Below, piece after piece: positions 6,712 through 58,134 of a stretch of DNA of 64,000 nucleotides. This DNA comes from Verrucomicrobiia bacterium (lineage in GTDB: Bacteria; Verrucomicrobiota; Verrucomicrobiia; Limisphaerales; CAIMTB01), in NCBI GenBank assembly GCA_019634625.1, contig JAHCBA010000002.1:204114-268113 (forward strand), given 5' to 3'. The number at the start of each line of letters is the position of its first letter. Position 1 is the stretch's first letter. The translations under genes and the position numbers were made by a program. Under the pieces are notes generated by a model. It worked only from the letters and a program-made list of their open reading frames with translations. It was not told the origin of the DNA and made no database searches.

Positions 6712-7539
6712 CTACATTCGAGGGGGCAGTATCGTGGGCCAAGCACCCCTGATGGAGCCAAAGTGGCGAATCAGTGTTGGGAACGTGTTTAACACCGGGT
6801 TGGGATTCACGGGTGCGCCCTTCTCATCCAGATAAAGACAACCGACTTCTTTAGAGCCTGTCTGAAAACTGGGAGGGGCCCTGTTGTCGCGGAAAAGACC
6901 GGATGGCGAGGCGCGAGGAGGGAGCATACCCGCCAGCGGTCTGTGACCGAGGAGCCACGAAGCCAGCCGGCCTTTTCCGCGACAACCCTTCGGGCGACGG
7001 TCCTTTCGGCCTGGGCCTGCGTTGGCTCGACCGTTACAGCCCGCTGCGGGGATGCGCCGGCCTCGCCGCCTTGGCCCAGGCCAAAACTCCTCGTCGCAGG
7101 GCCCCTTCCAGTTTTCAGACAGGCTCTTAGGAGGCAGTTTGGCAATGATTTCGAGGGCGGCCATGGAGGCTTCAAGCCAGGTGTCCTTGAGTTCGGCAAG
7201 ACGCAGGGGCACCTCCAAGGCAAGGTCGGCGAGGTCCTCCGGACGATAGACCGCGTGCCGACCGGCCCAGTGGACAATGGCTTCGGGTGAGAGACCCGGA
7301 TCCTTGCCGGTGCCGGCCCAAGCCAGAGCACCCAGGTGAAGATGGTGTTGATGAAGGTGGAGGACGTCGATCCAGTCGCGAATTTCGGCTCGCCCAGCAA
7401 AGGCCAGAACCTTGTTCACTGCGGCATCCCAGAAATTCAGGCGCCATCCCAACTCAGGGTCGGGTTCGACAGGAAAGAACCGGAAGGCACTGTCGAAGGC
7501 CCATTCGATTCTCGTCTGGTGTGATCCCTGACGGACCAC
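6712..7539 (-). pseudogene. AbiEii/AbiGii-type nucleotidyltransferase toxin, C-terminal part, with an in-frame MITE insertion
   Basis: The reading frame opens at a GTG at 7539. WAFDSAFRFFPVEPDPELGWRLNFWDAAVNKVLAFAGRAEIRDWIDVLHL matches the C-terminal half of AbiEii-like proteins, as do the later GCLYLDEKGAPVNP and RHFGSIRGAWPTI. The N-terminal nucleotidyltransferase domain with its GS...D.D motif is missing. An in-frame TAG lies just upstream of the GTG (7551-7553), so the gene is probably truncated. Between LPPK and EVGCLYL, 92 foreign codons come from a 273-bp MITE plus its 3-bp target duplication. The insertion contains no stop and keeps the frame. No AbiEi-like antitoxin gene is adjacent. 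Most likely an inactive remnant of a toxin or abortive-infection gene. Confidence 0.72.
6854..7126. mobile_element. 273-bp MITE, IS5-like ends, TTA target duplication
   Basis: The ends are near-perfect inverted repeats of about 29 bp starting GAGCCTGTCTGAAAACT, with one mismatch further in. TTA occurs directly outside both ends (6851-6853 and 7127-7129), a 3-bp target duplication of the TNA type used by some IS5-family elements. Inside is a second inverted pair (TTGTCGCGGAAAAGACCGG near 6884 and its complement near 6968, one mismatch) and a third (GGCCTGGGCC near 7011 and 7070), so the whole element can fold into nested hairpins. It has no transposase gene. It sits inside the AbiEii-like reading frame and adds exactly 276 bp. 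Confidence 0.85.
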
Positions 7540-20623: not shown

Positions 20624-21487
20624 TCAGGGCTTCACCCAGGCGGCGTAGCCTTCGCGGAAGCTGGGATAACGCGGCTGCCAGCCGAGTTCGCGTCGGAGTC
20701 GGACGGTGTCGATCCGGCGGTTGGCGGTGCCGCGGGCCGAGCGGGCGGCACTGGCGGCGCTGCGATTCGGGAGGAATTCCGGGCCGAGACGTTCTGCCAG
20801 CCAGGCTTCGAACGCCTCCGCCCGGACAGGGGTGAGATCGGAGACGTTGTAGAGGCTGCCGGGGACGCCGCGTGCGGCGACGAGGAGGATCGCCTCCACC
20901 AGGTCGTCACGGTGGACCATGTTCAGCCAGCGTTGCGGATCGCCGGAGGGCCAGGGCGCGCCCCGGCGGAGCATCTCGACGCGGTTGCGGCCGGGTCCGT
21001 AGATGCCGGAGATGCGGAGGATCCGGGCGGGGAACCCTTCGGTGGCGGCCTGACGGAGGACACCTTCGGATTCGAGGAGGATGCGGGCGGTGGCGGATTC
21101 AGGGGTGGTGGGGGAGTCCTCGGTGACCCATGAGCCGTCGGTCTGGGCGTAGACGGCGGTGCTTCCGGTGAAGACGTAGGCGGACGGGGGGCGCGGACGG
21201 AGCCAGGCGAGGAGCTGCCGGGAACCTTCGAGGTAGGTGGCGCGGTAGGCGTCGGGATCGCCGGCGTCCGGGGCGCCGCAATGGACGACCCAGTCCCAGT
21301 CCGGGGTACGGGAGGCGAGGGAGGCGGCCTGGGTGAAGTCCGCGATCCAGGGTTCGATGCCGGCCTTGCGGAGGACGGAATCGGCGTCGGGGGAGCGGCG
21401 GAGGCCGGTGACATGATGGCCTTCGGTGGCGAGGCGGGCGCCGAGGGCGAGGCCGAGGTAACCGCAGCCAGCGAGGAGAATGCGCAT
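20624..21487 (-). CDS. NAD(P)-dependent epimerase/dehydratase-like SDR
   Basis: The product is 287 residues from the ATG at 21487 (MRILLAGCGYLGLALGARLATEGHHVTGLRRSPD). The ORF is open for another 1.2 kb upstream, but that is antisense to leuB. GCGYLGLALG is the atypical extended-SDR cofactor loop. YVFTGSTAVYAQTDGSWVTEDSP carries the active-site Ser/Thr region, while the usual YxxxK is not clear (the equivalent position has LESEGVLRQ), as in the YeeZ/WcaG-like atypical group. PARILRISGIYGPGR and YNVSDLTPV follow. Substrate unknown. It is divergent from leuB with 99 bp between start codons. Confidence 0.85.
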   Translation of the reverse strand: MRILLAGCGYLGLALGARLATEGHHVTGLRRSPDADSVLRKAGIEPWIADFTQAASLASRTPDWDWVVHCGAPDAGDPDAYRATYLEGSRQLLAWLRPRPPSAYVFTGSTAVYAQTDGSWVTEDSPTTPESATARILLESEGVLRQAATEGFPARILRISGIYGPGRNRVEMLRRGAPWPSGDPQRWLNMVHRDDLVEAILLVAARGVPGSLYNVSDLTPVRAEAFEAWLAERLGPEFLPNRSAASAARSARGTANRRIDTVRLRRELGWQPRYPSFREGYAAWVKP

Positions 21488-55350: not shown

Positions 55351-58134
55351 TCACGCCTTCACCCCGGCCTGCGCCGTCAATTCCTTCGCCACCCGCTCGA
55401 TCTCGGCAACCGCCGGTTCCCATGGGCCGGCGGCGGTCTGCTGGAATGCCCGCAAGGGTTCCAAACCCGCTCCCCACGCCGTTGCCACGGGTGCCTGCAG
55501 CGCCTCTTCCGGCGAGCCCGGTTCGGGCAATCGCCCCGCCACCGCCACCGCCCGTGCCCCGGCCACCAGGGCTTCCAACGCCTTGTCCCGGGCCTCAGCA
55601 ACGAACCCGGCCGCCCCCAGGACCCGCGCCAACCGCGCCTGCCGTTGCGCCCACCCCGCCTGTTCCGCCAGGCGGCGCCGTTCCTCGTCCGTCAACGCCT
55701 TCGCCGCCGGATCGCCTCCCGGGAAGAGAGGCCGGGCCCCACGGGTGGTGGCGCAGATGAGGCCGGCCGCCGCGAGCCGTTCCAACGCATCGTGCGTTGC
55801 CCGATCCACCACTTCGAGGCGTACCGGAGCCAGCGGGTCAGCACGCCCTTCGCCGAAATACTCCTGGTGCAACGACGCCAACCGTTCCCGATGCACGCCC
55901 GCATCCCGTTCCACCACGACGTACAACACGGAATGGGCGCCTTCCTTCGGGAAGCGCTCCTCGCACTGGACCAGGGCCCCGTTGATGCGTTGGTGAACGG
56001 TTTCGGCAAATCCCAGTGACCGGTCTGCCGGCAGGGAAGGTCCACGGGGAGGCGGTGGGGTGGTTTCGCCATCCTGTCGCTGGGTGAAAAGCTGCCGCAG
56101 CCGCGCAAGGAACGCCTGCCGGCCGCCGCGTGGTTTCAGTTCCGCCAGGTCGCCCCTCAGGTCCAGCACGCCATCCGCGAGCGCCTGCTTGCCGGCCAGC
56201 GTCTCCAGCATCTGCTGCTCGATCGTTTTCTCCGCAATCAGGTGGTACACGGTCACCGGCTGGGTCTGGTGCTTCCGCCAGGCCCGCGCGATCCGCTGCT
56301 CCAGCCGGGCCGGGTTCCACGGAAGATCGCAGTTGATCACCACGCTGGCGTTCTGGAGGTTCAACCCGGTCGATCCCGAATCCGTGCTCAGAAATACCCG
56401 GCAATTCGCATCGCCCTTGAAGGCGTTGATCTCCGCCCGCCGCCGCCGCTGCGGCACGCTCCCCGTGTGCCAGGCGTACCCGAGATTCATCCGCTTGCAG
56501 AGGTCCCGCACCAATTCCAACATCCCCTCCCACTCGGAAAACACGATCACCTTCGCCCCATTGTCCCGGGCCGCCTCAAGCAGCTTCTCCAATTCCCCCA
56601 GCTTCGGGCACGTCCGGTCCGTCCGGTCGAGAATGTAATTGGTGTCGCAGGTCATCCGGGCCATGGCCAGATGCTTGAAGAGCTTCTCCTGCTCACCCTG
56701 CGTCAGAGCCCGCCGGCGTGCCGCTTGGAGGAGCCGTCCGATGATAACTATATGTTCTTCGTAATTAACGGCTTGCGATGGACTTAAGGGGACGAAGAGA
56801 TGCTTGTCCGTGCGATCCGGCAGCTCGGTTTCCACATCCGCTTTGCGGCGCCGCACCATCAGCGGACGGATGCGATCGTGGAGCTGCTGAAGGTTGCGAT
56901 ACCCATCCGGTCGTCCCCGATCATCAAGCACGTAATACTCCCGGTTGAACCGGAAGAGCGGACCCAGAACGGCGGGGTCGAGGAAGTCGATCAGCGAATG
57001 CAACTCGTCGATCCGATTCTCGATCGGGGTGCCGGTGAGAACAAAGGCGTACCGGCTCCGCAGGCGCTTGATGGCCCGTGCGGTCTTGGTGTTCCAGTTC
57101 TTGATCCGTTGGGCCTCGTCGAGCACCACCACGTCCGGGTGCAGGTGCTCGTTGACCTCGAGGGCATCGGCGAGCATTTGCTCGTAGTTGACCACCGTAA
57201 AAAACGGGGCGTTCCGATAGGCTTTCAGTCGCTGTTTCTGAGGTCCGAACACCAACTGTAACGATAAGTTCGTAAAGCGCTGGACCTGCTCTTCCCATTC
57301 CGTCTTCAACGATGCCGGCGTGACCACCAACACCCGTTCCGCCTTCCCCAGCCGGTGCAGCAACGCGCACGCCGCAATGGCCTGGATGGTCTTCCCCAAC
57401 CCCATCTCGTCCGCCAACATCGCCCGCTCCGTGAAAGCCAGGTGCAGCATTCCCTCCCGCTGGTACGGATACAGGGGAACCGTCGTCTCGTGGCTCGGCC
57501 ATTCCCCGGAATGCACCTTGGCTTCGTATTCCCGACGCAATCGGTGACGCTCCTCCTCCCGACATCGCCGTTCCAGCCATGAGTCCGCCTCCTGCGACAC
57601 CCTCAAGGAAGGACACCCATTCTGGGACAGCTTCCTCCAAGCCTTGATCTCGTCCTCACTTGGTTCACCAAGCAACCACCCGTCCGGATCGATGCGTTGC
57701 CGCAAGACCTTCGGCAACCGACGTCGGTCGCCCTCCATCCGCCAGCGTCCCGTGGCGGGATCGGGGAAGAGATCCAACCGGTCCGATCCGACTTCCAACG
57801 CCAACTGAAACGCCTTCCGGAAGCGCCCCTCGAGCAGGAGAAATACGGCCTCGACATGCTTGCAGGTCCCCAGGCCGTTGATCCGGAAATCCACGCAGGT
57901 GCAGGCGACCTGGCGTTCCCGCAGACGCCGGATCTCCACCGAGTAGGTCAGTCCGCTCCCCGATAGAACCTCGAAATTCGAAAAGATCGGGTGATGCGGA
58001 TCGCGGTTGAGAATTCGAAACGTCTCGGTCTGCGCCCGCAACCGCCTCCGCTCAATCTCCTCCTCGTCCGTCGTCCGCCAGTCGTACACCGTCGGCACCA
58101 GGAGTTCTTCCTTGCCGGTCTGCTTGCGTGCCAT
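55351..58134 (-). CDS. SNF2-family helicase-like ATPase with N-terminal SWIM zinc finger
   Basis: The product is 927 residues from the ATG at 58134 (MARKQTGKEELL); an ATG 12 bp upstream is also possible. The SWIM motif VACTCVDFRINGLGTCKHVEAV (CxC...CxH) is at about 76-98. SNF2 motifs: I DEMGLGKT, Ia VVTPASLKTEW, II VVLDEAQRIKN, III VLTGTPIENR, IV VIVFSEWEGML, V STDSGSTGLNLQNASVVINCDLPWNPARLEQRIARAWRKHQTQPV (V and VI together). It is an ATP-driven DNA translocase acting in repair, transcription or defence. The C-terminal 250 residues are helical and include GDPAAKALTDEERRRLAEQAGWAQRQAR. It is the last gene of a minus-strand series 98 bp after mnmG. Its role is not defined. Confidence 0.92.
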   Translation of the reverse strand: MARKQTGKEELLVPTVYDWRTTDEEEIERRRLRAQTETFRILNRDPHHPIFSNFEVLSGSGLTYSVEIRRLRERQVACTCVDFRINGLGTCKHVEAVFLLLEGRFRKAFQLALEVGSDRLDLFPDPATGRWRMEGDRRRLPKVLRQRIDPDGWLLGEPSEDEIKAWRKLSQNGCPSLRVSQEADSWLERRCREEERHRLRREYEAKVHSGEWPSHETTVPLYPYQREGMLHLAFTERAMLADEMGLGKTIQAIAACALLHRLGKAERVLVVTPASLKTEWEEQVQRFTNLSLQLVFGPQKQRLKAYRNAPFFTVVNYEQMLADALEVNEHLHPDVVVLDEAQRIKNWNTKTARAIKRLRSRYAFVLTGTPIENRIDELHSLIDFLDPAVLGPLFRFNREYYVLDDRGRPDGYRNLQQLHDRIRPLMVRRRKADVETELPDRTDKHLFVPLSPSQAVNYEEHIVIIGRLLQAARRRALTQGEQEKLFKHLAMARMTCDTNYILDRTDRTCPKLGELEKLLEAARDNGAKVIVFSEWEGMLELVRDLCKRMNLGYAWHTGSVPQRRRRAEINAFKGDANCRVFLSTDSGSTGLNLQNASVVINCDLPWNPARLEQRIARAWRKHQTQPVTVYHLIAEKTIEQQMLETLAGKQALADGVLDLRGDLAELKPRGGRQAFLARLRQLFTQRQDGETTPPPPRGPSLPADRSLGFAETVHQRINGALVQCEERFPKEGAHSVLYVVVERDAGVHRERLASLHQEYFGEGRADPLAPVRLEVVDRATHDALERLAAAGLICATTRGARPLFPGGDPAAKALTDEERRRLAEQAGWAQRQARLARVLGAAGFVAEARDKALEALVAGARAVAVAGRLPEPGSPEEALQAPVATAWGAGLEPLRAFQQTAAGPWEPAVAEIERVAKELTAQAGVKA

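Follow-up and report, generated by a model that had tools for sequence, protein, structure and literature searches.

Why does a 273-bp insert lie in frame in an AbiEii-like gene, and is it the gene or the element itself that the inserted sequence serves? The initial annotation of the window, by which we mean the whole stretch of 64,000 nucleotides that was analysed, took the insert for a MITE and proposed that it can act as a protein-coding spacer. MITEs are classed by their ends and are commonly regarded as empty derivatives that arose from insertion sequences by deletion. The unusual feature of this locus, which the initial annotation missed, is a conserved folded core inside the element (Table 1).

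Table 1. Position of the insert, its parts and its host ORF in the window
Feature	Position	Strand	Remarks
MITE, full-length copy, 273 bp	6854..7126		copies in genome and relatives
Left TTA target-site duplication	6851..6853
Right TTA target-site duplication	7127..7129
Left terminal inverted repeat, 30 bp	6854..6883	+	first 15 bp common to IS5-family elements of relatives
Right terminal inverted repeat	7097..7126	-	29/30 bp identical to left
Core 1: P1 stem, tandem-GA helix, P2 hairpin	6896..6975	+	model R1, 83.4 bits, E 8e-25
Core 2, inverted, diverged, head to head with core 1	7004..7084	-	model R1, 54.6 bits, E 2.5e-15
Host ORF, truncated AbiEii-like gene with 92 inserted codons	6712..7539	-	275 aa from GTG 7539

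The insert and its family

The 17-bp end sequence GAGCCTGTCTGAAAACT, for which 0.01 matches are expected by chance in the window, occurs exactly at 6854-6870 on the plus strand and at 7110-7126 on the minus strand. The inverted repeat reaches 30 bp with one mismatch and TTA stands at both flanks, which bears out the earlier description of a 273-bp element with inverted ends and a TTA duplication. The source genome holds nine full-length copies (273-277 bp, 94-100% identical) as well as many partial ones, and the element has matches in 52 of 146 genomes of the order. With terminal inverted repeats, a target-site duplication and multiple dispersed copies, and with TNA duplications in the family, the insert is a MITE, as had been claimed.

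We collected 61 full-length copies, 34 of them exactly 273 bp long. Identical 3-bp flanks were present in 38 of the 61, compared with 11 expected after re-pairing, and in 37 of those 38 the flank was TNA. The initial annotation had looked to TTA duplications at other copies; 3-bp duplications are indeed there, but they follow TNA and not always TTA (TTA 15, TAA 12, TCA 6 and TGA 4 among the 38 matched pairs). An exact 30-mer of the element end had no match in the genome contig collection, nor did the element match the phages searched.

The source genome also contains mini-elements of 34-55 bp, which consist of hardly more than two end repeats lying almost next to each other; several have TNA duplications of their own, and one of 34 bp lies between TCA and TCA. 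Loci with such forms are L279:2001-2034 (G000:C23:7690-7723), L050, L055, L042, L044, L037, L040 and L058, and L027, L028 and L038. They resemble products of snap-back deletion in the MITE and are perhaps still mobile. One relative, G055, has a very high MITE copy number; a first look gave 421 candidates, and dozens of its cores are identical. This suggests recent MITE activity.

Candidate sources of transposase

Insertion sequences of 928 and 949 bp in the relatives G132 and G055 have the ends GAGCCTGTCTGAAAA and GAGCCTGTCCGAAAA and TNA flanks. The transposases L396 and L404, found in relatives only, match the IS5-family model NF033580 with 219-227 bits against a cut-off of 110. The two insertion sequences agree with the MITE over the terminal ~15 bp only, where they are the same or nearly the same, and the folded core is absent from both. 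In the source assembly, pairing and inspection of terminal repeats with up to two mismatches, together with a check of PF01609 matches, yielded no autonomous insertion sequence with the MITE ends; the PF01609 matches in genomes of other phyla likewise included none with matching terminal repeats. An IS5-like element with such ends, which the initial annotation had suggested looking for, was found in G132 and G055 but not in the source assembly. The MITE probably uses an IS5-like transposase.

An IS1182-like element in another genome (G003, L410:92-1575) has the ends CTAGCAGCCCGT, which resemble the ends CTAGCAGCCCGTGG of the core-bearing MITEs of Acidobacteriota. As a possible partner from another insertion sequence family it is suggestive only.

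The host gene

When the 276 bp are removed, the joined flanks read LPPKEVGCLYL (LPPKEVGCLYLDEKG). The nearest homologue, a collinear sequence with 75% identity over 178 aa, has no insert and reads LPPSEVGCLYL at the site (LPPSEVGCLYLDGTG); other homologues have LPPAEVGCLYL or LPPSEVGCLYL across it, so the insert-free members of the family uphold the earlier reconstruction. Homologues of the host gene occur in 20 of 146 related genomes, the source genome counted. Those in related genomes carry no insert of this kind.

These homologues are longer by ~83 N-terminal residues, including the nucleotidyltransferase motif S-x-D-[IV]-D, and the loss of an N-terminal domain from the host gene had accordingly been recognised correctly. 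Homology begins at ~7545, and no remnant of the missing residues or motif is detectable near the gene within the window. PF08843 (AbiEii) scores 15-17 bits (E = 0.005-0.02) on the window ORF, below the cut-off of 22.5, and 36.5 bits, above it, on the intact closest homologue of ~265 aa. The assignment to AbiEii is weak in the case of the window ORF and sound for the intact homologue. The dN/dS of the host remnant was set aside because it mostly reflects time before truncation.

A conserved folded core inside the element

When relatives were searched with the element, its positions ~51-114 turned up again within elements having entirely different ends. This core of ~70 nt comprises a variable outer stem (P1), three tandem G·A pairs and a variable apical stem (P2). 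Its strands GGCGCGACGARGGAG and GACYGAGGAGCAACG pair through three tandem G·A/A·G steps with Watson-Crick pairs between them; the G·A positions hardly vary, and the intervening Watson-Crick pairs covary. In our first alignment (A1) the central pair is either C-G or G-C, and in further matches (A2) it is CG 43 times, GC 35, AU 5 and UA 4; the pair next to it is G-C or A-U. The R25/Y53 pair, counted in loci retrieved by one core strand only, is GC in 75 cases, AT in 10, GT in 2 and AC in none.

In A1, 16 pairs had changed on both sides, and the covariation score was 0.441 versus 0.136 for shuffled alignments (0/500), with slid controls at or below 0.113. Covariation of the whole structure was higher than in any of the 500 shuffles or the slid controls both in A1, which was aligned without structure, and in A2, which was fitted to the model and hence leans towards it. 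Within the reach of comparative alignment, selection on single-strand pairing of the core is shown. Under RNA parameters a consensus-like core takes up the same structure (z -6.75) and its complement does not; core 2 folded as RNA on the minus strand gives z -4.5. DNA folding parameters do not favour the core structure. This difference between predicted RNA and DNA folds favours an RNA form, short of proof.

In all nine source-genome copies (those readable at full length) the central pair of core 1 is G opposite G, where relatives mostly have C-G or G-C. This mismatch is specific to the lineage and breaks a pair in a family that still amplified, so a perfect core is not strictly needed. Elsewhere in the window, weak matches to the covariance model R1 at 55663-55725 (17.0 bits) and 21419-21480 (13.4 bits) are probably chance or decayed cores.

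Distribution of the core

Core-bearing elements number in the hundreds and come in two sizes. Those of ~160 bp hold a single core, and those of ~265-285 bp often hold two, placed head to head ~28 bp apart. Their borders are mostly TNA, CTAG or TA. Clustering of 54 sampled terminal repeats at a 75% threshold gave about 31 clusters, a number that depends on the threshold, and many of these types keep a loose IS5-like look; common descent with drifting ends is possible for both reasons. Elements with inverted ends are where the core commonly lies; detectable inverted ends do not surround every core, partly owing to contig ends.

A 21-nt pattern taken from one side of the core occurred in at least 119 stretches when one genome per species was scanned. 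According to record titles, in genome collections that are mostly draft MAGs, the core is present in Verrucomicrobiota, Acidobacteriota, Myxococcota (Myxococcales/Kofleriaceae), Elusimicrobiota, Nitrospinota and Gemmatimonadota. The model R1, built without any sequence from the source genome, matched at least 20 times there and was found in 56 of 146 genomes of the order, in 16 of 194 genomes of the phylum at large, and in 33 of 149 genomes of a second phylum sampled around an acidobacterial genome. All 20 named genomes picked from the pattern scan had matches, with a maximum of at least 132 per genome; such per-genome counts are lower bounds.

The viral contigs, plasmids and E. coli genomes searched held no match to the core, and no Rfam 15 family matched the window element or the cores of 15 other loci. 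At a permissive threshold, the Rfam candidates were miRNA and DUF3085 matches only, at chance level, and were rejected. Core strings appeared in no open-access paper searched, and queries combining MITE, phylum and structure gave nothing relevant.

What the core may do

The explanation that we consider very probable is a single insertion of a non-autonomous IS5-type MITE in an AbiEii-like gene that is now truncated, the MITE belonging to a large superfamily defined by its core. An IS5-family transposase would have worked in trans through the ~15 terminal bp that it shares with the MITE's ends in relatives, and insertion at a TNA site would have produced the 3-bp duplication; the ends and duplications themselves are observed. 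What marks the superfamily is its interior and not its ends, namely the one core or the two head-to-head GA-hairpin cores that we observe. Most likely the core is conserved for a function of the element's own single-stranded, probably RNA, form. It probably acts for the element, for example in host-protein binding or in protection of a transcript by a hairpin, rather than on neighbours, although this step is uncertain. Against this explanation count the failure to find an autonomous partner in the source assembly, the G·G mismatch in every readable core 1 copy of its own genome, and a structure that DNA folding parameters do not favour.

It is also conceivable, if somewhat unlikely, that the core works as single-stranded DNA in replication or transposition, as a hairpin for a helicase, a nuclease or part of the replisome. 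The selection on pairing, the place of the core, where a long inverted repeat in mobile DNA has its tip, and the lack of a transcription-strand bias would all agree with such a role, whereas the DNA energy parameters disfavour the structure. DDE transposition, moreover, is not known to have an obligatory single-strand step, which counts against it.

NEMIS and ERIC are MITEs that act on mRNAs, and this precedent speaks for a core that serves host genes in cis, as a terminator, an mRNA stabiliser or an RNase III site. The strand-specific RNA fold would suit that role too, and stable folds of MITE transcripts have been discussed in a review (PMC10969869). However, the two-core form is strand-symmetric, and neighbouring genes show no bias in orientation (21 tandem in the same direction, 20 opposite, by crude ORF-based gene calls). 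With no preferred strand, the core is unlikely to work in cis on mRNAs nearby, and we regard such an effect as improbable.

Function might be dispensed with altogether if the core were the inherited interior of one ancient MITE whose ends drifted or were exchanged, spread by ancestry and horizontal transfer. The uniform architecture (core spacing and two lengths everywhere) fits this account, and mostly TNA, CTAG or TA borders are consistent with IS5-like enzymes. Yet outer stems that differ wholly in sequence remain complementary, and the central pair shows all four Watson-Crick types. Covariation is not explained by ancestry alone, and descent without function is therefore a doubtful account.

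The best remaining idea is that the core, as RNA or single-stranded DNA, serves the element itself. We offer more tentatively, as a plausible reading that may well prove too broad, that the core marks a cross-phylum class of elements which keep a conserved single-strand structure while often exchanging terminal repeats and transposases, and that the structure provides a needed function independent of the transposase.

The in-frame insertion

The element and one duplication together make 276 bp and the AbiEii frame is open, so that exactly 92 codons are added without a stop, in keeping with the initial annotation. Its further claim of a protein-coding spacer role for the element is not supported. 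A length of 273 bp with a 3-bp duplication always preserves the frame, and three of the six frames of the window copy are open; a stop-free in-frame insertion consequently has about even odds for any gene. The outcome follows from the length (273+3) and the openness of three frames rather than from any spacer role. We consider the in-frame position in the truncated gene to be largely a matter of chance, and the insertion itself ordinary. The spacer reading is weak, neither shown nor new; in-frame insertions of MITEs and palindromic elements are already known (PMC10969869, PMC2759123, PMC3733652).

The only other clear in-frame copy found inside a domain, L088 (G024:C18:39054-39326), lies in the N-terminal domain of an hsdR-like gene (HSDR_N) without a target duplication, and that gene appears frameshifted or damaged. 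A repeat adapted to coding would lie preferentially in frame in functional genes, and only one or two of the 61 copies lie in frame, one in the truncated gene and one in the hsdR-like gene that looks damaged. Open as the 92 codons are, with the family sequence kept on both flanks, two frames open in many diverged copies (39/61 and 35/61, above a simple composition shuffle) and a second in-frame copy in the hsdR-like gene, it is very improbable that the MITE is adapted to be translated through and that the AbiEii-like gene still yields a longer functional protein, given a host without its catalytic N-terminal part, an hsdR-like copy apparently within a damaged gene, most copies outside recognised domains, and an inherited openness and modal length of 273 bp that make in-frame outcomes the expected default.

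Comparison with known systems

A constant folded core with changing ends implies that some MITE interiors are under selection. The model R1 finds and unites elements that are now viewed as unrelated, and it makes the success of small non-autonomous elements testable.

Like the present insert, Rickettsia palindromic elements (RPEs) and intragenic ERIC/RU sequences are repeats that lie in frame within ORFs (PMC10969869; Delihas PMC2759123). RPEs, however, are mainly intragenic and in frame, whereas for the present MITE this applies to 1-2 of 61 copies, in genes that are truncated or look damaged. With structured RNAs in Rfam the core shares covarying stems around conserved non-canonical pairs, but it is matched by no Rfam 15 family. 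REP/BIME sequences (GTAG/CGTC tagged; PMC3733652) resemble our cores as repeated hairpins, often in pairs of opposite orientation. They are tagged sequences of 20-40 bp with RAYT tyrosine transposases or none, whereas the present core is ~70 nt long, has tandem G·A pairs and lies within an element with terminal inverted repeats and a target duplication. In build the insert parallels IS5-derived bacterial MITEs, which like the present element are short and non-coding, have terminal repeats in common with an insertion sequence, make TNA duplications and occur in many copies; the present set differs from them in being known by its folded interior, which is found with ~31 types of terminal repeat and in several phyla.
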